Made by a program: the position numbers and the translations under genes | Shown: positions 52,683 to 60,633 of the stretch, in pieces | Layout of the letters: each line of letters starts with the position of its first letter | Position numbering within the stretch: position 1 is the first letter of the stretch | The notes under the pieces: model-generated | What the model was told of the DNA's origin: nothing | Databases searched by the model: none | Seen by the model: only the letters and a program-made list of their open reading frames with translations | Source of the DNA: Leucobacter sp. G161 | GTDB taxonomy: Bacteria > Actinomycetota > Actinomycetes > Actinomycetales > Microbacteriaceae | Length of the DNA stretch: 64,000 bases | Assembly (NCBI RefSeq): GCF_001482305.1 | Contig: NZ_LOHP01000074.1 | Span: 1 to 64,000, forward strand | Direction: 5' to 3'

Positions 52683-52694
52683 TCACAAGTGATT

Positions 52695-52725
52695 ACTTGC
52701 GCAAGTGATTGAATGTCACTATGCT
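52695..52725 (+). promoter_or_regulatory. CorA-operon promoter overlapped by ACTTGCGCAAGT palindrome
   Basis: The perfect 12-bp palindrome ACTTGCGCAAGT (52695-52706) contains the probable -35 TTGCGC; 16 nt later comes TATGCT (52720-52725) as -10. A repressor bound here would block the -35. The same core (TTGCGCAA) occurs at 56919-56930 and 60196-60207, next to the ArsR gene. Confidence 0.7.
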
Positions 52726-52740
52726 GATGAGTGCGCTTCG

Positions 52741-52882
52741 TTCGGTGAGGCTCTTGCGTGAACACAGGCCACTGATCTGACGACATCGAGAGATGCCCAA
52801 GGTTAGGACAGGCACCCTCGGCTTAAGGGGGCTGCCCAAGGTGGCTGCACTACGACTACGTCACGCAATGCCGAAGCTCTGA
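52741..52882 (+). ncRNA. M-box (ykoK) Mg2+ riboswitch
   Basis: The leader of the CorA operon follows the M-box plan. GGTGAGGCTC at the 5' side and CCGAAGCTC at the 3' side frame the aptamer. TTGCGTGA (52754-52761) pairs perfectly with TCACGCAA (52861-52868). ACAGGCCACTG is followed by a CATC-GAGA-GATG tetraloop hairpin (52784-52795), and CTGATCT (52772-52778) can pair with AGGACAG (52805-52811). A CACCCTCGGCTTAAGGGGG arm and GGTGGCTGCA come next. A small GAGCC-AAC-GGGCTC-like hairpin near 52901-52916 may be the expression platform. High Mg2+ is expected to switch off the downstream operon. Confidence 0.88.
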
Positions 52883-52946
52883 CATGGAAGCGCGTTGTCC
52901 CCGAGCCAACGGGCTCATTTGGCGTGCCCTGAGAGGAACAAGCGGT

Positions 52947-53264
52947 ATGCGCACAGCACTCTACGAACAGCCCCTGCAGGCGGGGGGATCCGCCCCCGTC
53001 GCCGCAGAACGGCCGACAACCGCGGTCCTGCCGCAGGGAGGACCGACCCGGTGGCGGAGCCAGTTCTTCACGGACACACGTACGCCCGGAGGGAAGAAGC
53101 AGCGAGCTACGCGGTACGAGCGATTCACCACTCGGATGGTGCTCGTCAGCAGCGTCATCATGCTCGGCGTAACCGCGACTCTGCACGTCATCAACTATGA
53201 CCTTGAGACGAAGACCTCGTCGACGTCCGGCACACACGGCGGCTTCTATAAGGAAGGCGAGTAG
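52947..53264 (+). CDS. small single-span membrane protein, first gene of CorA operon
   Basis: No family recognised. It has 105 aa from ATG 52947, about 65 nt after the M-box. A hydrophilic N-terminal half with a basic patch (GGKKQRATRYERFTTR) precedes one membrane span (MVLVSSVIMLGVTATLHVI, about residues 63-82), then a short tail (NYDLETKTSSTSGTHGGFYKEGE). Basic residues before the span suggest the N-terminus is inside. The operon position suggests a partner of the CorA-like proteins; that is inference. Confidence 0.75.
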   Translation: MRTALYEQPLQAGGSAPVAAERPTTAVLPQGGPTRWRSQFFTDTRTPGGKKQRATRYERFTTRMVLVSSVIMLGVTATLHVINYDLETKTSSTSGTHGGFYKEGE

Positions 53265-53328
53265 GCGTCCAGCCTCCCAGCCACATCGTGAGCGCGGAAT
53301 GCCGCGTCCAATCAGGAAGTGAAAGTTA

Positions 53329-54279
53329 ATGAACAATGAGTACGGAACGACGGCGCTGGCGGGCGACGTCCAATCCCTCAACGGCGGCCGGTGGCAGCGC
53401 GTGCGTGGGGAAAGCTCTCGCGTGCATGCTGACCTGCGTGCGGAGTTTGGGGTCGACTTTGAAGATGCTGCCTCCTCCTCGTTCAGCACCGAGAATGGGC
53501 TGAGTTACCTGCCCATCACCTACGTGGCCAGTTCCGCCGAGGGTTACAGCACCACGCGGATTATGCTCGCCATCAGCGATTCGATCGTCGTGACGATAGA
53601 GCCGAGCGCATCAGCTGCCGCGCTCGACCTCGCGGTCGCACGGATGGCGCGCGACGGACGCGAAGACGACAGCGCCGTGGAGATCGTCGCGAGCATCCTG
53701 CAAGCCGTTGCCGATACGACCGACGAGCTCGTGAGCTCAATGAGTCAGGGCACCGAGCGGATGATGATCGAGACGGGGGCGATTCTGCAGAGCCTCGAGG
53801 CGAAGAAGTCACGCGAGTTTGGGGTGAGTGATGTCACCTACACCCAGCAGGAGCTCGCAGACATGGAGTCGCTGCTCTCGCACTGCATGGAGAGCCAGCT
53901 CGCGCTCGCAGAGGCCGCGCGGCACCTGCGGGCGAAGCTCTGGGGCCTCGGACTTGAGACCCGGTCGGATTTGAGCAGGCTCATCGAAGATATCGTCGCC
54001 ATCGAGCCCCACATCGAATTTGTGCACGACCGAGTGCGCCTGCTGCAGCAGACGAACAACCTCGCGCTCAACGTGAAGCAGAACCAGATTATCAAGGTCT
54101 TCTCCGTGGTCACCGCCGTATTCCTGCCGGTGATGCTGCTCTCGACGTACTACAGCATGAACTTCGAAAACATGCCGATCCTGTCGTGGCAGTACGCCGA
54201 GCCGATGGTCATCGTGCTCAGCTTCCTCTTCGCGCTTGCCCCGCTCTTCTACGTGCGGTGGCGCGGCTGGCTGCGCTAG
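53329..54279 (+). CDS. CorA-like divalent cation transporter, SMN variant (CorA-1)
   Basis: A 316-aa CorA-superfamily protein: cytosolic alpha/beta N-domain (residues about 1-140), long stalk helices (about 145-250), TM1 (NQIIKVFSVVTAVFLPVMLLSTY), the pore loop and TM2, ending YVRWRGWLR. The signature reads YSMNFENMP: the usual GMN is SMN at about 276-278, while the following ENMP is kept. In CorA the GMN triad forms the outer selectivity filter, so selectivity or activity may differ. It is led by an M-box and a TTGCGCAA operator and followed by a small membrane protein and two more paralogues. Confidence 0.87.
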   Translation: MNNEYGTTALAGDVQSLNGGRWQRVRGESSRVHADLRAEFGVDFEDAASSSFSTENGLSYLPITYVASSAEGYSTTRIMLAISDSIVVTIEPSASAAALDLAVARMARDGREDDSAVEIVASILQAVADTTDELVSSMSQGTERMMIETGAILQSLEAKKSREFGVSDVTYTQQELADMESLLSHCMESQLALAEAARHLRAKLWGLGLETRSDLSRLIEDIVAIEPHIEFVHDRVRLLQQTNNLALNVKQNQIIKVFSVVTAVFLPVMLLSTYYSMNFENMPILSWQYAEPMVIVLSFLFALAPLFYVRWRGWLR

Positions 54280-54318
54280 GCCACAGACTTTCCCAACTAC
54301 TCAGCAAAGGAACCACTC

Positions 54319-54567
54319 ATGTCGAACAAGAACCTCAACGGTACGCTCCCAAACGCAAGCTCGAAGCCGGTTGCCTGGAGCTCGCGCATCGATGTCCACC
54401 ACCTCGGCGGTGATGCCTCGGCAGGCCAGTCGCAGGATGGAAGCGACTCGGCGCGGCAGGGCAGCTCGAAGATCGAGAAGGAAATCATTTGGGCTGTGGT
54501 CGTGCTCTATGCGGGCCTCATCGCCTGCTTCGCCGGACTCCACCTCTTCGGGCTCTCGCTCGGGTAA
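54319..54567 (+). CDS. small single-span membrane protein, third gene of CorA operon
   Basis: No family recognised. It has 82 aa from ATG 54319 with AAAGGA upstream. A polar Ser/Gly/Asn-rich N-terminus includes DVHHLGGD, then KIEKEIIWAVVVLYAGLIACFAGLHLFGLSLG forms one membrane span at the C-terminus (about 52-80). It sits between two CorA-like genes and has the same outline as the first small protein of the operon, so both may be subunits or modulators of the transporters. Confidence 0.72.
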   Translation: MSNKNLNGTLPNASSKPVAWSSRIDVHHLGGDASAGQSQDGSDSARQGSSKIEKEIIWAVVVLYAGLIACFAGLHLFGLSLG

Positions 54568-54633
54568 TCCGCCCCCAGTTCACATGATCGGCCGCCGAAG
54601 CGGGGCCGATCCCCATGTCTTGAAAGTGTGACC

Positions 54634-55581
54634 ATGCAAGAAAACACAGCAACGGGTGCGCAGCTCGACGCTCAGCAGCTGCCACGGCAGGGCTGGCTGC
54701 GGGTGCGTGCCTCGGACCAGATCATGCTCGCGAATATCCATAGGCAGTACGGAATTCGACTCGAGCGGCCGGTGCGGCACGCGGTTGAAGAGCAGGGCTT
54801 CGTGCTGCTGCCGCTCGACCTGCCGCTGCCCGACCGTGAGCCGGACTCGAGCGAGGGCGCGTCGTTCTCGTCGACGCAGATCCTCATCGCGTTCACTCCC
54901 GAGCTCCTCATCACCGTCGAGCCTGACCACCCGATCGACGCGCTGCGGCGCGCGCAGGATCTGCTCGCGCGGAGTGACGACAGCTCGGCAAGCCGGGACG
55001 CGCTCATCATCATTCTTGAAGAGCTCAACGACGCGATGCAGGAGACTGTCGCGCAGATTTCGCAGGTGCTCACGCGCCTCGCGGATCAGGCGGTTGATAG
55101 CAGTGGGGGCTTCAAAATGGAGGGGCGCCAGGTCGGTGTCGCCGACATTGCGCAGACCGCAGTCATGCTCGGAGGCGCGGAGGAGCTCATCGCCCGGACG
55201 GTGCAGGGGCAGCTCATGCTTGAGCGCGCGGCGCGGTGGGTGCGACGCGGCGGTGGCGACGTGGAATTTGACTATTCGACGACGCTGTCTGACATTCAGG
55301 GCGGCCGCCGGCACGCACGGTTCCAGCACGCCAAGGTGCGGAATATTCAGCAGTCGCTCATGACGACGCTCGATCTCAAGCAGAACCAGATCATCAAGGT
55401 GTTCACGGTGGTCACCGCGGTGTTTACGCCGCCGACCCTCATCGCCGCATATTACGGCCAGAACTTCGCAAACATGCCTGAGCTCGCGCTCGGCTGGGGT
55501 GAATGGTTCGTGATGGGCACGACCGCGCTGTTTGCGCTCGTGCCGCTCGCGTACATCAAGCGGAAGGGGTGGTTGCGATGA
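54634..55581 (+). CDS. CorA-like divalent cation transporter, GQN variant (CorA-2)
   Basis: A 315-aa CorA-family protein (a GTG at 54628 would add two residues). N-domain, stalk helices (EELNDAMQETVAQISQVLTRLADQAV...), TM1 (QNQIIKVFTVVTAVFTPPTLIAAYYG) and TM2 (EWFVMGTTALFALVPLAYIKRKGWLR) are all present. The signature reads YYGQNFANMPEL: GMN is changed to GQN at about 275-277, but the downstream NMPEL is canonical. It is coupled to the third paralogue by an ATGA overlap at 55578. Confidence 0.87.
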   Translation: MQENTATGAQLDAQQLPRQGWLRVRASDQIMLANIHRQYGIRLERPVRHAVEEQGFVLLPLDLPLPDREPDSSEGASFSSTQILIAFTPELLITVEPDHPIDALRRAQDLLARSDDSSASRDALIIILEELNDAMQETVAQISQVLTRLADQAVDSSGGFKMEGRQVGVADIAQTAVMLGGAEELIARTVQGQLMLERAARWVRRGGGDVEFDYSTTLSDIQGGRRHARFQHAKVRNIQQSLMTTLDLKQNQIIKVFTVVTAVFTPPTLIAAYYGQNFANMPELALGWGEWFVMGTTALFALVPLAYIKRKGWLR

Positions 55582-56468
55582 GCGTTCGGAGCATTACGCG
55601 CGACACCTGGACCAGGGTCTTCCTGGATGCTCCTGAGGATTTCGCGACCGCCGAGCGGGTGCTCTCGAATCGGCTCCATCGCGGTGGGGAGGATCACGAG
55701 CGGCGGCTGCCGGTCACGATTGTGTCGGCGGGCGGTGGCGCAGCACACGTGTACAACCTCACGGTGATTGTGCGCGCCGAGCAGATCATCACGGTCGAGC
55801 CTGGCGCCGGTATTCCGCTGTTGCAGGACGTCGAGGCGCGCCTCCAGTGGGCTGACGCTGCAACCGACACCCCGCACCACGCGTGGTACGCGATCGCCCA
55901 GGCCGGGTTTCAAGCGAGCGCCGGCGCGCTGGAGTTCGTCGAATCGGATATCAACCTGGTTCGTGCGCCGATGGTGGAAGCGAGTCGCGAATCATCGCGT
56001 AGCCTCGGCGTCAGTGATTTGCCGCGGGTGAGCGAGATGCTCGTCGACATCGACCACGCGCTCTCGCACGTGGCATCCTCGATTGCGACACTGACGCAGC
56101 TCGCGCGGCTGCTGCGCCGTGAGACCGCGGTGCCGGGATCCGGTATCGAGCGGCCCCAGGTGGATGCGCTCATCCAGCAGGGTGAGGCGCTCACCCGCAG
56201 GGTCGAGTTCATGGTGGACCGTCACAGGTTCCTCTCGCAGGGCGCCTCGCAGCAGATCTCCACGAGCGACCTCAACATCGTCAAGATCTTCACGGTGCTC
56301 TGGGCGATCCTCATCCCCGGCACCACACTCATCAACTGGTACGGGCAGAACTTCGAGTTCATGCCAGAGCTCAGCTGGGAGTACTCGAGCTGGATCCAAA
56401 TCCTCGGGGTGTTCTTCCTCGCGGTGATCCCGATCTATACGGTGAAGCGCGCAGGGCAACTGCGGTAA
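55578..56468 (+). CDS. CorA-like divalent cation transporter, GQN variant (CorA-3)
   Basis: A 296-aa CorA-family protein, start ATG 55578 overlapping the preceding stop. It has a reduced N-domain, stalk helices, TM1 (TSDLNIVKIFTVLWAILIPGTTLINWYG) and TM2 (WIQILGVFFLAVIPIYTVKRAGQLR). The signature reads WYGQNFEFMPEL: GQN at about 256-258 and NMP changed to FMP. The most diverged of the three. Last gene of the operon; a perfect bidirectional terminator follows. The three unlike paralogues could form hetero-oligomers, which would be new for this family. Confidence 0.86.
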   Translation: MSVRSITRDTWTRVFLDAPEDFATAERVLSNRLHRGGEDHERRLPVTIVSAGGGAAHVYNLTVIVRAEQIITVEPGAGIPLLQDVEARLQWADAATDTPHHAWYAIAQAGFQASAGALEFVESDINLVRAPMVEASRESSRSLGVSDLPRVSEMLVDIDHALSHVASSIATLTQLARLLRRETAVPGSGIERPQVDALIQQGEALTRRVEFMVDRHRFLSQGASQQISTSDLNIVKIFTVLWAILIPGTTLINWYGQNFEFMPELSWEYSSWIQILGVFFLAVIPIYTVKRAGQLR

Positions 56469-56482
56469 CGTGGACAGACACC

Positions 56483-56516
56483 AAGCGGGCGGATCGAGTC
56501 ATCGATCCGCCCGCTT
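56483..56516. terminator. bidirectional terminator after CorA operon
   Basis: Perfect 15-bp stem AAGCGGGCGGATCGA / TCGATCCGCCCGCTT with loop GTCA between convergent units. Confidence 0.85.
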
Positions 56517-56532
56517 CTGCGTTCGCTGCGTG

Positions 56533-56832
56533 CTAGCTCCGCCGGTCTCGCGTGACGGCGAGCGTGCACACGATGGCGACCGCGATGCACAGGCCGGCGA
56601 CGCCAACCGGAACCGAAGCCTCGCCCTCGGCGATCATTACGGCGACGAGTTCGATGAGGGATGCGAGGAAGAGGAGCATTGCGATGAACGCGAGCATCGA
56701 ACGGACCCAGAGCCGTGTTGAGGCGCGTACGGGTGCGTGGCTGGCGGGCGGATCGTGTGGCTGATGGACGATGCCGTCAGTGTTGGCCGGCCGGCCGATA
56801 CCGGAGTGGGTCAACCAGATTGAGTGGCGCAT
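56533..56832 (-). CDS. small two-span membrane protein under TTGCGCAA control
   Basis: No family recognised. It has 99 aa from ATG 56832 (GGAG upstream; the longer frame to 56904 runs into the operator and is rejected). A His-containing polar N-terminus (MRHSIWLTHSG...GIVHQPHDPPASHAPV) precedes two membrane spans (about residues 44-66 and 72-93) and a short basic end (TRDRRS). Its own promoter carries the palindrome shared with the CorA operon and the ArsR/ABC locus. The clustered His residues (positions about 3, 9, 26, 29, 35) could bind metal; speculative. Confidence 0.7.
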   Translation of the reverse strand: MRHSIWLTHSGIGRPANTDGIVHQPHDPPASHAPVRASTRLWVRSMLAFIAMLLFLASLIELVAVMIAEGEASVPVGVAGLCIAVAIVCTLAVTRDRRS

Positions 56833-56918
56833 GTGAGTCTCCGCTGTCTGTCGTGGGCGGGCTGCATGGCAGCGTGCATGGGACGAGGCTCGGGCCTCGG
56901 CCACTCATATACTACTTC

Positions 56919-56938
56919 AATTGCGCAAGTACGCAAGT
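56919..56938. promoter_or_regulatory. TTGCGCAA operator in promoter of the two-span protein
   Basis: AATTGCGCAAGT (56919-56930) differs by one base from ACTTGCGCAAGT, with a half-site ACGCAAGT directly after (56931-56938). Read on the minus strand, TTGCGT, a 16-nt spacer and TAGTAT give a promoter with the palindrome inside the spacer. Confidence 0.6.
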
Positions 56939-56994
56939 GTGGCGAGTGTTCGAGGACTCGAGTGCCACAGGCACGCGCCATCGGAGCGCGCCGA

Positions 56995-58356
56995 TTAGCG
57001 TGGCGGGTTGCCCGCGTCCGGGTCGAGCAACGCGCTGAGGCCAGTCGCAACCTCGGACAGCATGAGTTCGTCGCTGTCCGCATCAAAGTCGAAGAGTTCT
57101 CCGTACCGGCCCCAGTCGATCGCGAGCGTGAGCTGGCGTTCCGCATCCTGTTCGTTGAACCCGCGTCGCAGCAGGTCTCGGAAGAAGTCTGCCCGGAGGG
57201 ATCCGGTGTCGCTGTGTTCGAGTGCCTTCACGATCGTCCGCACGAGGGGAGCGCGCGCGACCGCCAGCTCGGCGAAGCTGATCTTGCTCTCGTGAATGCC
57301 CGCCCAGTGCCAGGCGTAGCCCGCATCGGTGATGAAGCTCTGTGCGCCATCAACGGTGAGGAGTCCGAGCATGCTTGCCGCGTCGACGAGCGGCAGCAGG
57401 TCATCGATGTCGAATGACAGTTCATCGGCGAGATCTGGAAGATCGGTTTGGCCGCCGTGCGCGACCACGATCTCGATGAGGCCAGCCAGTCCGCCGCTCG
57501 TCGCCTCCGGCAGCGGATGGGTGAGCGGCCCAGGGGGAGCCTCGCTTGCGTGCCCGGCGCCAGGGGTTTTCCCGGTGAGGAGCGCATACAGGTGGTCAAC
57601 AGCGGATTCGAAGGTCGGGCTGCGCTTGTCGCGGGGACGCGGAATATGGATCGGGATCTCGGCCTGGATCGCCCCGGGTGTGCCGCCAAGCACGAGCACG
57701 CGATCGGCGAGCTGCACGGCCTCCTCGATGCTGTGGGTAACGATGCAGATGCTCTGGCCTGACAGCTCGCGGTCGCCCCACACTTTCATCAGCTCACTGC
57801 GGAGGTTCTCGCCGGTGAGCACGTCCAGCGCCGAGAACGGCTCGTCCATAAGCAGCAGGTCGGGGCGCTGCACGAAGGCCCGCGCAAACCCAACGCGCTG
57901 CGCCATGCCGCCCGACAGCTCTCGCGGGTACGCGGTTTCGAAACCATCGAGCCCGATCGCGTCGATCGCGTCGATCGCGCGCTGGGTGCGTTCGGCCCGC
58001 GGTACCCCCGCGGCTCGGAGGCCGAGCTCGACATTTTCGAGCACCGTCAGCCACGGCATCAGCGCGAACGACTGGAACACCATTGCGACGGCCGGGTCAG
58101 TCTCGTCCACCGGAACGCCCCGGTAGCGCACCTCCCCGGCTGACGGCGGGATCAGGCCCGCGAGGACTCGGAGTAGCGTCGACTTCCCCGATCCAGACCT
58201 GCCGAGCAGCGCCACGATTTCGCCCTCGCGGATCGTGAGATTCACGCCCTCGAGCACGCGCAGGCTGCCGCCGTCCGCCGACGGAAACGACTTCGCGATC
58301 GCTTCTGCGCTCACGAGCACGCGGCCTGGAGGCTGAGTGCTGTATACGTTCGTCAT
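56995..58356 (-). CDS. NitT/TauT-type ABC transporter ATPase with AAA-associated C-terminal domain
   Basis: A 453-aa ABC ATPase. The nucleotide-binding domain (residues about 14-255) has Walker A LLGRSGSGKST, Q-loop VFQSFALMPW, signature LSGGMAQRVGFARA, Walker B LLLMDEPFSALD and H-loop VTHSIEEA. It is of the nitrate/sulfonate/bicarbonate branch. The C-terminal domain (about 290-450, GLIEIVVAHGGQTDLPDLADELSFDIDDLLPLVDAASMLGLL) is the AAA-associated winged-helix-like domain, probably regulatory. It starts 22 nt after the permease stop. The cargo is unknown, but context points to a metal ion or its ligand. Confidence 0.88.
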   Translation of the reverse strand: MTNVYSTQPPGRVLVSAEAIAKSFPSADGGSLRVLEGVNLTIREGEIVALLGRSGSGKSTLLRVLAGLIPPSAGEVRYRGVPVDETDPAVAMVFQSFALMPWLTVLENVELGLRAAGVPRAERTQRAIDAIDAIGLDGFETAYPRELSGGMAQRVGFARAFVQRPDLLLMDEPFSALDVLTGENLRSELMKVWGDRELSGQSICIVTHSIEEAVQLADRVLVLGGTPGAIQAEIPIHIPRPRDKRSPTFESAVDHLYALLTGKTPGAGHASEAPPGPLTHPLPEATSGGLAGLIEIVVAHGGQTDLPDLADELSFDIDDLLPLVDAASMLGLLTVDGAQSFITDAGYAWHWAGIHESKISFAELAVARAPLVRTIVKALEHSDTGSLRADFFRDLLRRGFNEQDAERQLTLAIDWGRYGELFDFDADSDELMLSEVATGLSALLDPDAGNPPR

Positions 58357-58378
58357 AGGGGAGGATCCTTCAGCGTCA

Positions 58379-60193
58379 TCATGTCAGGGAGTACCGGGTT
58401 TCGGCTAGCCGGTAGAGTCTTCGCCAGAGCAGCCGGTTCGTCGCGACGACGAGCACGCTCATGACGGCAACCCCGACGAGCACGCGGCCGGTATCACCAG
58501 CAGCCGTCGCCTCCGAGATATACGCGCCGAGCCCGGTCGCCGTGAGCGTCGTGTCGCCGTAGCTCACGACCTCCGCAACGATCGAGGCGTTCCATGCTCC
58601 GCCAGCCGCCGTCAGCGCACCGGTGACCCAGCTGCCAAAGATCGCAGGGCCGTAGAGCGTGCGCCAGGTGAGCGCGCGCCCAAGGTTCAGGCTCCGCGCG
58701 GACTCGCGCAGATCGATCGGGATCGCCGCTGCTCCCGCAATCACGTTGAACAGGATGTACCACTGCGAGCCGAGCGCCATGAGGAGGATGCCTCCCACGT
58801 CAAGGCTCACTCCGGTCGCGATGAGCGCGAGCGCGAACAGCGGGAACAGGAAGTTCGCGGGGAAGCTCGCGAGTACCTGCACGATCGGCTGCGCGAAGCG
58901 CGTCACGCGAGGACTCAGCCCGATCCACACCCCGATCGGCACCCATACGAGGGTCCCGATCACCAGCACTACGAGGACGCGACCGAGGGTGATGAACCCG
59001 AGACCCGCGGTCACCGCGAACTGTTCGAGACCAACATCGTTGGCGACGAAAGCGAGGGCCGCGGCGAGCCCCCAGACCAGCAACGCAGTGCTCGCGACTG
59101 CCGCGGCGACCCCTCCCCAGCGTGGCATAGTGCGGAGCGCCCCGCGGGGACGTCTGCCCGTGCGGCCCAGGACACGCATTGCGCGCTCGAGGCCCTCGCG
59201 CAGTGGCCGCGTGAGTGCGGCGAGCGCCCCTGGGATCGACGACCGCCGCAGCACGTCGTACACGACGCTCGTCTGCGGGTCTGCGGTGTCCGTGTCACCG
59301 AGTCGGAAACGCTCAGCCCATGCAGTGAGCGGGCGCCAGAACACGAAGTTGACGCCTACGACGAGCACGACCATCACTGCGGCTGCGAGCAGAAGTAGGT
59401 CGATCCGTGCGTCCTGAGACGCGGCGGCGGCGAACGACCCAATCCCTGGCAGCGCGTAGTCTCGCTGGCCCACAGTGAGCACCTCGGAAGCGATGAGGAA
59501 GAACCAGCCGCCGCCGAAACTCATCATTCCGTTCCAGACCAGGGGGAACGCTCCAGAAGGGGCGTCGAGCTTCCAGAACCGCTGCCACCTCGTCAGGCCC
59601 ATCACGCGGGCTGCTTCGTCGAGCTCTTTCGGTTGGGAGATCAGCGACTGATAGAACGCGAACGTCATGTTCCAGACCTGGCTCGTGAAAATCGCGAAGA
59701 TCGCCGCGCTCTCGAGCCCGAGTGCAGAGCCGGGGAAGAGGGCGAGCCAGAGTGGCAGCGTGACCGCGAGGAACCCGAGCACCGGCACCGACTGCAGCAC
59801 GTCAAGGACGGGGATCATGATCCGTTCGGCGTGCCGCACCCGTGCGGCGATGGTTGCGTAGACGAACGAGAACACGACCGAGAACGCGAGCGCAACGAAC
59901 ATGCGCAGCAGTGAGCGGGCCGCGTAGTAGGGCAGGTGTGCTGGGTCGGTGGACACTGCGGCCGGGGCCGACGCCTGGTCGAAAGGCGCTGCGAGATCTG
60001 GGGACACCTGCGAGACGGCCCAGAACGCAATGAACAGGCCCGCGAAAACGACGACGTCGGCAAGGCGACTGCGGCTGCCGCGCGGGGGAGCGACGGGCCT
60101 GCGTAGCGGCGCTGCAGGGTGCGGTTCGATGTCCAGCTCCTGTCTCTCAGCGTGCGATGGCGCTCTCGGGCGCTCCCAGCCTATGACATGCAA
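58379..60193 (-). CDS. fused double ABC permease (NitT/TauT type)
   Basis: One polypeptide of about 600 aa carries two BPD_transp_1 permease halves, each with an EAA loop facing the ATPase: ELDEAARVMGLTRWQRFWKLDAP in the first and DLRESARSLNLGRALTWRTLYGP in the second. About twelve membrane spans. The start is uncertain: TTG 60193 is the last in-frame conventional start before TM1, but it lies upstream of the predicted -10 (TAGGCT, 60178-60183). The good ribosome site ACAGGAG is followed 6 nt later by ATC (60130) and directly by CTG (60136). So the true start may be non-canonical. No substrate-binding protein gene accompanies the pair. Confidence 0.85.
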   Translation of the reverse strand: MHVIGWERPRAPSHAERQELDIEPHPAAPLRRPVAPPRGSRSRLADVVVFAGLFIAFWAVSQVSPDLAAPFDQASAPAAVSTDPAHLPYYAARSLLRMFVALAFSVVFSFVYATIAARVRHAERIMIPVLDVLQSVPVLGFLAVTLPLWLALFPGSALGLESAAIFAIFTSQVWNMTFAFYQSLISQPKELDEAARVMGLTRWQRFWKLDAPSGAFPLVWNGMMSFGGGWFFLIASEVLTVGQRDYALPGIGSFAAAASQDARIDLLLLAAAVMVVLVVGVNFVFWRPLTAWAERFRLGDTDTADPQTSVVYDVLRRSSIPGALAALTRPLREGLERAMRVLGRTGRRPRGALRTMPRWGGVAAAVASTALLVWGLAAALAFVANDVGLEQFAVTAGLGFITLGRVLVVLVIGTLVWVPIGVWIGLSPRVTRFAQPIVQVLASFPANFLFPLFALALIATGVSLDVGGILLMALGSQWYILFNVIAGAAAIPIDLRESARSLNLGRALTWRTLYGPAIFGSWVTGALTAAGGAWNASIVAEVVSYGDTTLTATGLGAYISEATAAGDTGRVLVGVAVMSVLVVATNRLLWRRLYRLAETRYSLT

Positions 60194-60225
60194 TAACTTG
60201 CGCAAATTGCAGAATGAGGGATCAT
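60178..60225. promoter_or_regulatory. divergent arsR/permease promoters sharing one TTGCGCAA operator
   Basis: ACTTGCGCAAAT at 60196-60207. On the minus strand TTGCGC (60205-60200), 16-nt spacer, TAGGCT (60183-60178) serves the ABC operon. On the plus strand TTGCGC (60198-60203), 16-nt spacer, GATCAT (60220-60225) lies 6 nt before the arsR ATG, a leaderless layout. One palindrome thus supplies both -35 boxes. Confidence 0.65.
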
Positions 60226-60231
60226 TAGTAG

Positions 60232-60633
60232 ATGGACGACCACCACTTATCCGACGCACCCGCCCTGCCAGCCATTACCGACGCGCAATTACAGGCGGCC
60301 GCCGCAACGTTTGACATGCTGTCCACGCCGACCAGGCTTCACCTCGTCTGGCTCCTCGCCTCGGGGGAGTACGACGTGTCGACCCTTGCCGAGCTGGCGA
60401 ATGCCAACGTTCCCGCCATCAGCCAGCACCTTGCAAAGCTGCGGGCGGCAGGCATCGTCGCCGCGCGACGGGACGGTCGGAGGCAGTTGTACCGGGTTGA
60501 AGATCCACACATTCTCGCGGTGGTCGCGCAAATGTTCAGCCACATCGCGCCCGATGGCACGCTGGCAGCCGAGTCCGATGAGCGGCGCGCCCCCAGAGCC
60601 CCACGCTTCGCGGTCGCCGAGCCCGCACGCTAG
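60232..60633 (+). CDS. ArsR/SmtB-family metal-sensing repressor
   Basis: A 133-aa winged-helix repressor. HTH VSTLAELANANVPAISQHLAKLRAAGIV (residues about 49-76), wing ARRDGRRQLYRVED. The alpha3 Cys box (ELCVCD) is absent (ELANAN), but helix alpha5 has Asp91-x-His93 and His104, positions that match the Zn/Ni/Co site of CzrA and NmtR; the fourth ligand position is Pro107. His4 and His5 at the N-terminus could complete a site as in NmtR. It is divergent from the ABC transporter across a TTGCGCAA palindrome, so autoregulation and control of the ABC, CorA and two-span protein units are likely. Confidence 0.87.
   Translation: MDDHHLSDAPALPAITDAQLQAAAATFDMLSTPTRLHLVWLLASGEYDVSTLAELANANVPAISQHLAKLRAAGIVAARRDGRRQLYRVEDPHILAVVAQMFSHIAPDGTLAAESDERRAPRAPRFAVAEPAR

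Follow-up and report, generated by a model that had tools for sequence, protein, structure and literature searches.

We analysed a 64,000-nucleotide stretch of a Leucobacter sp. G161 contig (hereafter the window), where an M-box leader and a triple CorA-like operon share one block with a gene for a small membrane protein, an ABC transporter and a divergent arsR. On the forward strand, an M-box (ykoK) magnesium riboswitch aptamer (52730..52896; Rfam RF00380, 126.7 bits, cut-off 44) leads the corA operon. Its first gene encodes a small one-TM protein (52947..53264, presumed start) that has no Pfam match and is kept in relatives, and it is followed by CorA-like 1 (53329..54279; PF01544, 131.8 bits), a second small one-TM protein (54319..54567), also kept in relatives, CorA-like 2 (54634..55581; 115.7 bits) and CorA-like 3 (55578..56468; 70.1 bits). 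On the reverse strand lie a gene for a two-TM membrane protein (56533..56832, presumed start), which is without a Pfam match and was seen in no genomes other than this one and three that are closely related; abcA (56995..58356), an ABC transporter ATPase (PF00005, 117.4 bits) with a C-terminal PF09821 domain (116.5 bits); and abcP (58379..60136), a type I ABC importer permease fused from two halves, with two BPD_transp_1 stretches (PF00528), whose frame is open to 60259 and whose start codon is uncertain. The forward-strand arsR (60232..60633) encodes an ArsR/SmtB-family repressor (PF01022, 45.8 bits; NF033788, 81.3 bits, cut-off 55). Profile matches thus confirmed the riboswitch over the CorA operon, the three CorA genes, the ABC transporter and the ArsR helix-turn-helix named in a preliminary description of this DNA. 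YGMN is the signature of the canonical CorA Mg2+ channel. It is absent from all three CorA-like proteins, which carry YSMN, YGQN and YGQN in the window and in all extracted copies (17, 7 and 7, near-duplicates counted); their TIGR00383 scores (107.5, 108.9 and 56.8) all fall under the cut-off of 200.75.

The preliminary description had reported three near-identical 12-mer palindromes in plausible promoters and proposed that one ArsR controls every transcription unit of the block. The 12-mers are present exactly at 52695-52706, 56919-56930 and 60196-60207. Around their shared core, TTGCGCAA, we delimited three 24-bp palindromes: operator 1 at the corA-operon promoter (52689..52712, core 52697-52704), operator 2 at the membrane-gene promoter (56913..56936, core 56921-56928), with a second TTGCG half adjoining on the reverse strand, and operator 3 between the divergent abcP and arsR promoters (60190..60213, core 60198-60205). 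The presumed forward-strand corA-operon promoter (52697..52725) has its -35 TTGCGC (52697-52702) within operator 1, a 17-nt spacer and the -10 TATGCT (52720-52725). The claim of plausible promoters needs a correction: a sigma-70 scan returned no promoter reaching its threshold, and the promoters are read by eye, as TTGCGC-17 nt-TAnnnT, an arrangement found at all 10 corA-type M-boxes of the genus. The second and only other M-box of the genome (RF00380, 140.7 bits, cut-off 44) lies on another contig and heads mgtA-mgtC, and the palindrome sits at the -35 of both M-box promoters.

Motif counts in the window do not establish a regulon. TTGCGCAA occurs three times, always inside the block, against a shuffle mean of 0.99 (at least three in 8 of 100 shuffles), and the 12-mer with up to two mismatches occurs six times, against a mean of 1.98 (at least six in 3 of 100); we rejected these statistics as proof because shuffled sequences match the counts. 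In the genome-wide scan suggested by the preliminary description, the 12-mer with up to two mismatches was rarer (97 sites) than its reversed-pattern control (376), and three of the eight sites with up to one mismatch fall in the block. Because the genome holds only 29 exact TTGCGCAA copies (control, 60), three within 7.5 kb have a chance of ~4e-5, a post hoc estimate. The bare 8-mer is, in part, common outside promoters, the finding named beforehand as speaking against the proposal: 26 of the 29 copies lie outside the block, 17 of them in ORFs called by a crude caller. The extended operator is more discriminating. Scored with a PWM on exact copies only, operators 1 and 3 (29.0 and 25.1; 99% null, 6.0, for operator 1) exceed all 26 other copies (top, 18.9), operator 2 (18.2) falls slightly under two unrelated copies (18.9 and 18.6), and the mgtA-promoter site (11.2) falls under five copies outside the block. 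A copy before a Clp_N/polyketide-cyclase-like gene (C17:24574) scored 1.4 and was rejected as a regulon member. The underlying operator alignment omits, by eye, exact copies off the system's promoters (L069:11685 and L070:11791, both inside mgtA, L078:14717 and two in L089), and the PWM (35 sites) further omits the window sites, L061 and one L068 site. As far as positions and sequences tell, several genomes carry two labels: G526=L062, G515=L063, G550=L064, G536=L065, G548=L066, G328=L067, G537=L068, G527=L076 and G545=L061.

The real evidence for a predicted operator is conservation, not window counts. Comparison with relatives, a check that the preliminary description had proposed, shows the three palindromes to be, in sequence, one operator: other Leucobacter retain the 24-bp palindrome at the block promoters, and further genera of actinobacteria have it next to arsR. 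Across nine corA promoters (with the near-identical genome L139 omitted), the operator is 75% identical vs 26% for the 50 nt upstream. Of 21 loci with an ArsR of at least 62% identity, from several genera, 20 carry a site next to arsR that is either exact or high in score; the ABC transporter is present at 19, and the examined flank includes CorA/MgtA/MgtC/MgtE-NRAMP genes at 14. The same or a one-mismatch counterpart of operator 3 adjoins arsR in relatives, and operator 2 is retained in all four genomes seen with the two-TM membrane gene. G522 (L186) has ArsR and no operator site in the 300 nt upstream. A strict 24-bp pattern hit none of 394 class genomes, and we judged it over-strict because G328, which has two real sites, fails it. 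Since the corA operon and arsR are inherited as one block, their common motif is not fully independent evidence. Taken with the fourth site, at mgtA-mgtC, the comparison supports the proposal that a single ArsR would serve all transcription units of the block.

The distribution of M-boxes bears on what this ArsR might sense. Genus-wide, the palindrome precedes all 10 corA-type M-boxes and 3 of 11 mgtA/mgtC-type ones; five of the eight mgt-type promoters that lack it are in ArsR-bearing genomes. It is missing from the M-boxes of genus members without this ArsR (3/3). In genera with M-box-less loci, mgtC-mgtA is found together with this ArsR and its operator, as is the CorA triplet in Actinotalea. 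The mgtA of the proposed regulon, outside the window, scores 1144.9 bits with TIGR01524 (cut-off 610.75) and 1162.6 bits with NF011702 (cut-off 975), and all three P-type ATPases tested exceed the cut-offs of Mg-translocating models. The M-box is known to regulate mgtE, corA and mgtA, and the two M-boxes of this Leucobacter genome likewise head corA-like and mgtA-mgtC operons; the difference is that a presumed DNA-binding repressor shares the promoter in Leucobacter and takes the place of the M-box in other genera. Because the same genes are headed by the operator in some lineages and by the M-box in others, magnesium status is most likely what ArsR reports. The target genes point to magnesium, the metal that the preliminary description had left open.

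The ABC transporter, described earlier as NitT/TauT-type, resembles SsuBC, TauBC and NrtBCD in its related ATPase and permease. It differs from these importers in its permease, fused from two halves, in its PF09821 C-terminal domain and in its M-box or ArsR control; the NCBIfam equivalog models listed for NitT/TauT importers are all below cut-off (ATPase, best 25 of 186), and no substrate-binding protein family was found among the nine block proteins scanned. Another genomic TTGCGCAA copy, at C1:31535, was considered as the site of a missing binding-protein gene and rejected, as the adjoining gene encodes a DctP (TRAP) protein. PF09821 was found in 22 genomes, and neighbourhoods were taken from eight besides the window's own. 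In a second family, an Rfam scan of 21 loci placed the same ABC genes under an M-box at 18 of them, usually behind mgtC (order M-box-mgtC-abcP-abcA in 15 of the 18). Four of 22 ABC loci in this family (L197-L199 and L210) have an exact TTGCGCAA directly before the M-box, in genomes whose closest ArsR reaches at most 47%. We read these copies as chance because they lie downstream of the presumed -10 and are not conserved in neighbours, and they show that TTGCGCAA close to an M-box is by itself no proof of regulation. ABC loci L177-L179, L217 and L218 showed neither an Mg gene nor an M-box or ArsR. In G821 and G725, the PF09821 genes (L187 and L188, outside the Rfam-scanned set) are accompanied by no permeases but distant ones (35 and 28%), and tblastn detected no Mg gene. 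If ArsR reports magnesium, the transporter would be a Mg2+-regulated importer, probably of Mg2+ itself, and may represent a novel kind of magnesium transporter.

The AlphaFold model of ArsR (mean pLDDT, 85.4; best PDB matches, 8qkf and 1r23) matches SmtB proteins best, with CzrA near, and SmtB is also among the best matches by sequence. Like these alpha5 zinc sensors, it combines a winged-helix fold, a divergent promoter with an inverted repeat and D-x-H-x10-H; judged by sequence, its own predicted inverted-repeat operator overlaps the arsR promoter, as expected of the ArsR/SmtB family. D91, H93 and H104 align with the D-x-H...H of SmtB, positions that act as metal ligands in SmtB, and together with D108 they are invariant or near-invariant among 120 relatives, across which no cysteine is conserved. 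The alpha5 motif of SmtB and CzrA, D-x-H-x10-H-x2-E/H, is only partly present. The variant site, D91-x-H93-x10-H104-x3-D108, has P107 followed by an acid at +4 where SmtB and CzrA have E/H at +3. Further differences are a conserved basic tail, RRPPRxPRF, and the presumed targets, which serve Mg2+ uptake, whereas those of SmtB and CzrA are metallothionein or exporter genes.

We consider it probable that the block and mgtA-mgtC form a magnesium-acquisition regulon under an ArsR/SmtB-family repressor that reports Mg2+ sufficiency. The missing GMN of the CorA triplet and the mgt-type M-box promoters that lack the site speak against it, and our confidence was lowered slightly because of the four TTGCGCAA copies near M-boxes without a close ArsR. 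An ArsR dimer on the 24-bp palindrome, centred on the -35, would exclude RNA polymerase from the CorA-like triplet operon, mgtA-mgtC, the small membrane gene, the PF09821 ABC transporter and arsR itself. In Leucobacter, two gates would act on the corA operon and, for some species, on mgtA as well: ArsR at initiation and the M-box in the leader. ArsR would repress when Mg2+ is ample and be released when it falls, most simply if a divalent ion at the helix 5 Asp/His/His/Asp site stabilises the DNA-bound form. ArsR sensors are normally released from DNA by metal binding, opposite to the need of uptake genes; Mg2+ co-repression of this kind would invert that response. Only tentatively do we propose that this is the first ArsR/SmtB protein to read Mg2+ itself as co-repressor, and that the fused-permease/PF09821 transporter is a binding-protein-independent Mg2+ importer, to our knowledge an undescribed class.

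The ArsR family is best known for sensors of toxic metals, and the SmtB-like fold and sequence, the aligned D91, H93 and H104 with their ligand role in SmtB, the lack of a conserved cysteine and the family rule of metal-induced release would all fit a rather unlikely alternative in which ArsR senses competing or toxic Zn, Co, Ni or Mn at the alpha5 site and a rise in that metal frees the DNA, so that Mg2+ transporters counter poisoning of Mg2+ sites. Against it, the fourth ligand is displaced, other lineages have M-boxes in the operator's place at these genes, and no heavy-metal exporter family occurs among the proteins tested from ArsR/ABC loci, a subset of genes. We think it improbable that the regulon is real and its signal non-metal, such as a nucleotide or redox, with structural alpha5 residues: ArsR-family proteins of this kind exist, and the matches include BigR and SqrR, but the (near-)invariance of the four residues and the missing cysteine argue otherwise. 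Chance, or a promoter-inherent motif with TTGCGC as -35 and no ArsR involved, would suit the shuffle-range window count, the many copies outside the block and the four M-box loci of the second family, but is very hard to square with conservation far past the -35, over 24 bp, with the corA-promoter footprint, with the site by arsR in several genera and with its absence at the M-boxes of ArsR-less members of the genus.

Within open-licence PubMed Central text we found no paper describing control of Mg2+ transport by an ArsR protein, and none on PF09821 ABC transporters; PMC11895460, whose ArsR is Rv0081, is unrelated. The magnesium regulon that we favour would place the same gene set under riboswitch, repressor or both, by lineage, a natural experiment in regulator exchange, and its M-box and ArsR links offer a lead to the function of PF09821 ABC transporters, through which Mg2+ may enter by a new route. 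Magnesium protein sensors are few; PhoQ is one, and we know of no ArsR/SmtB repressor among them. In enterobacteria, PhoPQ places mgtA and mgtC under one protein regulator, as proposed here; PhoPQ uses a membrane sensor kinase, whereas the Leucobacter ArsR would be a one-component, cytoplasmic regulator.

The window belongs to contig C74. The genome totals 3.55 Mb over 109 contigs, and its nearest named relatives are Leucobacter; its ArsR is 98% identical to the copy in a Leucobacter bin and 89% identical to that of L. komagatae. The block begins with operator 1 and its promoter, followed in order by an M-box (the Mg riboswitch RF00380, 126.7 bits), a small transmembrane (TM) protein, CorA-like 1, a second small TM protein, CorA-like 2, and CorA-like 3. 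On the opposite strand lie a two-TM protein with operator 2, an ABC ATPase (abcA; PF00005 plus PF09821), and a fused permease (abcP; two BPD_transp_1 stretches), and the block ends with operator 3 and arsR, which diverges from abcP. The sites coincide with the presumed -35, with operator and M-box in tandem, and an ArsR dimer on the operator would be expected to repress sterically.

The preliminary description had proposed that one palindrome unites these promoters. Counts of its core, TTGCGCAA, within the window are weak evidence by themselves (three copies versus a shuffle mean of 0.99; three were reached by 8 of 100 shuffles). Because the whole genome holds only 29 exact copies, three within 7.5 kb are unlikely (chance approximately 4e-5, calculated post hoc). 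Of the 26 copies outside the block, 17 fall inside ORFs, as called by a crude GC3 caller. The mgtA promoter copy is one of the nine that do not. Conservation in neighboring genomes was confirmed: when the corA-type M-box promoters of nine genomes (one from each) are compared in pairs without gaps, identity averages 0.75 over the operator and 0.63 over its arms without the core, versus 0.26 in 50 nt well upstream. The 15 nt after the operator, which contain the presumed -10, reach 0.66, and the M-box start 0.55. Forty aligned sites, 37 of them from relatives and the other 3 from the window, were picked by their core, with near-duplicates among them and both strands of each counted; they give the consensus TCAAYnACTTGCGCAAGTnRTTGA, in which the terminal T/A carries 1.6 bits, though it lies outside the selection criterion. 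Operator 2 is retained in all four genomes seen with the membrane gene.

Querying the genome_contigs collection once with this ArsR returned 29 loci, of which we compared the 21 whose best segment reaches 62% identity or more (L061-L081). They belong to Leucobacter, Actinotalea, Micropruina, Flexivirga, Lapillicoccus, Microbacterium, and other actinobacteria. An exact TTGCGCAA lies within 240 nt of arsR at 14 of these, and six more (L066, L067, L069-L072) have a one-mismatch variant, TCAATGRCTTGCGCAYA..., in the arsR-abcP gap, scoring 22.3 to 25.5 on a matrix (PWM) built from the relatives' sites; the 99% level for random 250-nt window pieces is 6.0. Neither exact search nor PWM scoring found a site beside arsR at L080, whose ArsR frame start looks odd. 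Beyond the 21, L216 (genome G204) has a site scoring 18.3, and L186 (G522) shows nothing before arsR by PWM, yet has a site before mgtA. The ABC transporter is present at 19 of the 21 loci (missing from L074 and L080), and Mg2+ genes lie in the examined flank of 14: a CorA-like triplet plus M-box (L062-L065, L068, L076), mgtC-mgtA (L066, L067, L069-L071, L079), both gene sets without an M-box (L072), or MgtE_N/CBS and NRAMP genes (L074). This count leaves out a weak MgtE match 2.6 kb off in L077; L061, L073, and L081 are short contigs, and no Mg2+ genes were seen in the examined flank of L075, L078, or L080. Three P-type ATPases, from L066, L067, and the window genome, score above the cut-offs of Mg-translocating models.

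Several further features were observed around these loci. At L069:13842-15383, a diverged second ArsR copy with its own TTGCGCAA lies behind an extra CorA-like gene (PF01544, 40.5 bits). A family of approximately 150-170 aa (L067:13333-13830, L069:13399-13905, L070:13514-13864, L072:17216-17656) points away from mgtA or from the corA operon, and two TTGCGCAA lie in between; the three members scanned (L067, L069, L072) were Pfam negative, and the L069 copy has two C-terminal TM stretches. At L082, L083, and L084 (Sphaerisporangium, Crossiella), more distant ArsR relatives (56-58%) adjoin a Na/Ca-exchanger-family gene, with related palindromes (PWM 17.3, 15.0, and 7.6, respectively), and such a gene likewise adjoins a TTGCGCAA at L074. 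An operator-like TTGCGCAA (L078:14717-14724), 5.7 kb away from arsR, directly precedes a LytR-CpsA-Psr gene, and another ArsR-like gene (L122:2563-3234, contig C60) has TTGCGCAA at its start, with flanks unlike the operator (PWM 1.7).

The window genome has two M-boxes in total. The second (C17:25942-26110, 140.7 bits) leads a Mg-translocating P-type ATPase and MgtC, the pair that adjoins arsR in other genera, and is preceded by TTGCGCAA at C17:25906-25913, arranged as at the first (TTGCGC, 17 nt, TATGGT). The examined locus of the canonical CorA (YGMN; contig C64) has no TTGCGCAA. Among 54 genus genomes, the window genome included, ArsR was found in 12 (E 1e-20 or better) and 21 M-boxes were spread over 13. 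When the 80 nt leading up to the conserved GAGGCTC element (close to where the M-box starts) are searched for TTGCGCAA, the core precedes 10 of 10 corA-type and 3 of 11 mgtA/mgtC-type M-boxes, the latter in the window genome, G545 (apparently the source of L061), and L. komagatae (G526). All ten M-box genomes with ArsR have at least one M-box with TTGCGCAA, and none of the three without ArsR (G523, G524, G539) does (Fisher p 0.0035 across the 13, kinship uncorrected and G545 near-identical to the window genome). As counter-evidence, TTGCGCAA is missing before five mgt-type M-boxes of genomes that do have ArsR.

Depending on lineage, mgtA-mgtC and the abc genes have an M-box without the operator or the operator without an M-box, and mgtA also has both; the CorA triplet has both in Leucobacter and the operator alone in Actinotalea. 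Since operator and M-box replace each other over the same genes, ArsR and the M-box most likely respond to one shared condition, low Mg2+. The ArsR may bind Mg2+ itself or a different ion whose level follows it; the sequence fits either.

The ABC transporter also occurs apart from ArsR loci. Few genomes of the class have abcP (7 of 296), and the family of genome G246 has it in 22 of 251. An M-box was found at 17 of 20 Rfam-scanned loci of this family plus G246 itself (18 of 21 scanned), and the M-box start at the remaining locus, L210, was recognized by pattern. G1053 (L219) and G286 (L182) have no M-box even over wider stretches, and L207 has little upstream sequence on its contig. mgtC precedes abcP at 18 of the 22 loci, and G286 is flanked by an mgtA-like fragment. 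No ArsR match lies in the 22 loci (approximately 1.5 kb each side in most); the best in the whole genomes reaches at most 54% identity, with E 1e-20 passed by 5 of 22 (G477, G975, G994, G1034, G1047) and 1e-10 by 21. To judge by these matches, the family has distant ArsR members but lacks an ortholog of the closeness seen in the 29-locus scan. An exact TTGCGCAA just before the M-box at 4 of the 22 loci is downstream of the presumed -10 and altered in neighbors. The abc genes of G733 adjoin NRAMP and MgtE_N/CBS genes. The Mg2+ link of the transporter thus extends beyond ArsR, most G246-family loci having an M-box or mgtC and no ArsR match nearby. Yet the link is not universal: no Mg gene, ArsR, or M-box lies near the abc genes of G683, G659, G639, G307, or G142 (the last on a 5.2-kb contig), and just ArsR and a site lie near those of G034, G069, and G204. 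PF09821 occupies its own short ORF (approximately 160-180 aa) in other phylum lineages (L159, L160, L161, L163-L165, L167, L170, L171), and G821 (L187) has a stand-alone PF09821 frame beside a separate ATPase match.

ArsR has 487 relatives at E 1e-15 or better, of which 120 were listed and aligned; the named ones among these have generic names only. Rounded to two decimals, D91 and D108 show no variation across the 120, 99% is reached by H93 and H104, and cysteine is never the commonest residue at any position. In the structural model (mean pLDDT 85.4), the last helix spans 92-103; D91 and H93 sit where it begins, and H104 immediately beyond its end. Among solved structures, SmtB proteins are closest in fold. 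D91, H93, and H104 align with the D-x-H...H residues of SmtB, which serve there as metal ligands; in contrast to SmtB, the last acid is shifted and a conserved basic tail is present. Literature searches, covering open-licence full text, returned no description of an ArsR regulator of Mg2+ transport or of PF09821 ABC transporters. The component families are all known; new, as far as searched, are the wiring and the proposal that an ArsR serves magnesium and that PF09821 ABC transporters are under magnesium control.

The CorA-like signatures YSMN, YGQN, and YGQN are unchanged in every extracted copy (17 CorA-1, 7 CorA-2, and 7 CorA-3, near-duplicates included), also in Actinotalea, and the three proteins may assemble into one mixed channel whose selectivity is altered. 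At 53329-56468 and in relatives, the triplet with its fixed non-GMN signatures shares one operon with two conserved one-TM small proteins, an organization that suggests accessory subunits of such a channel.
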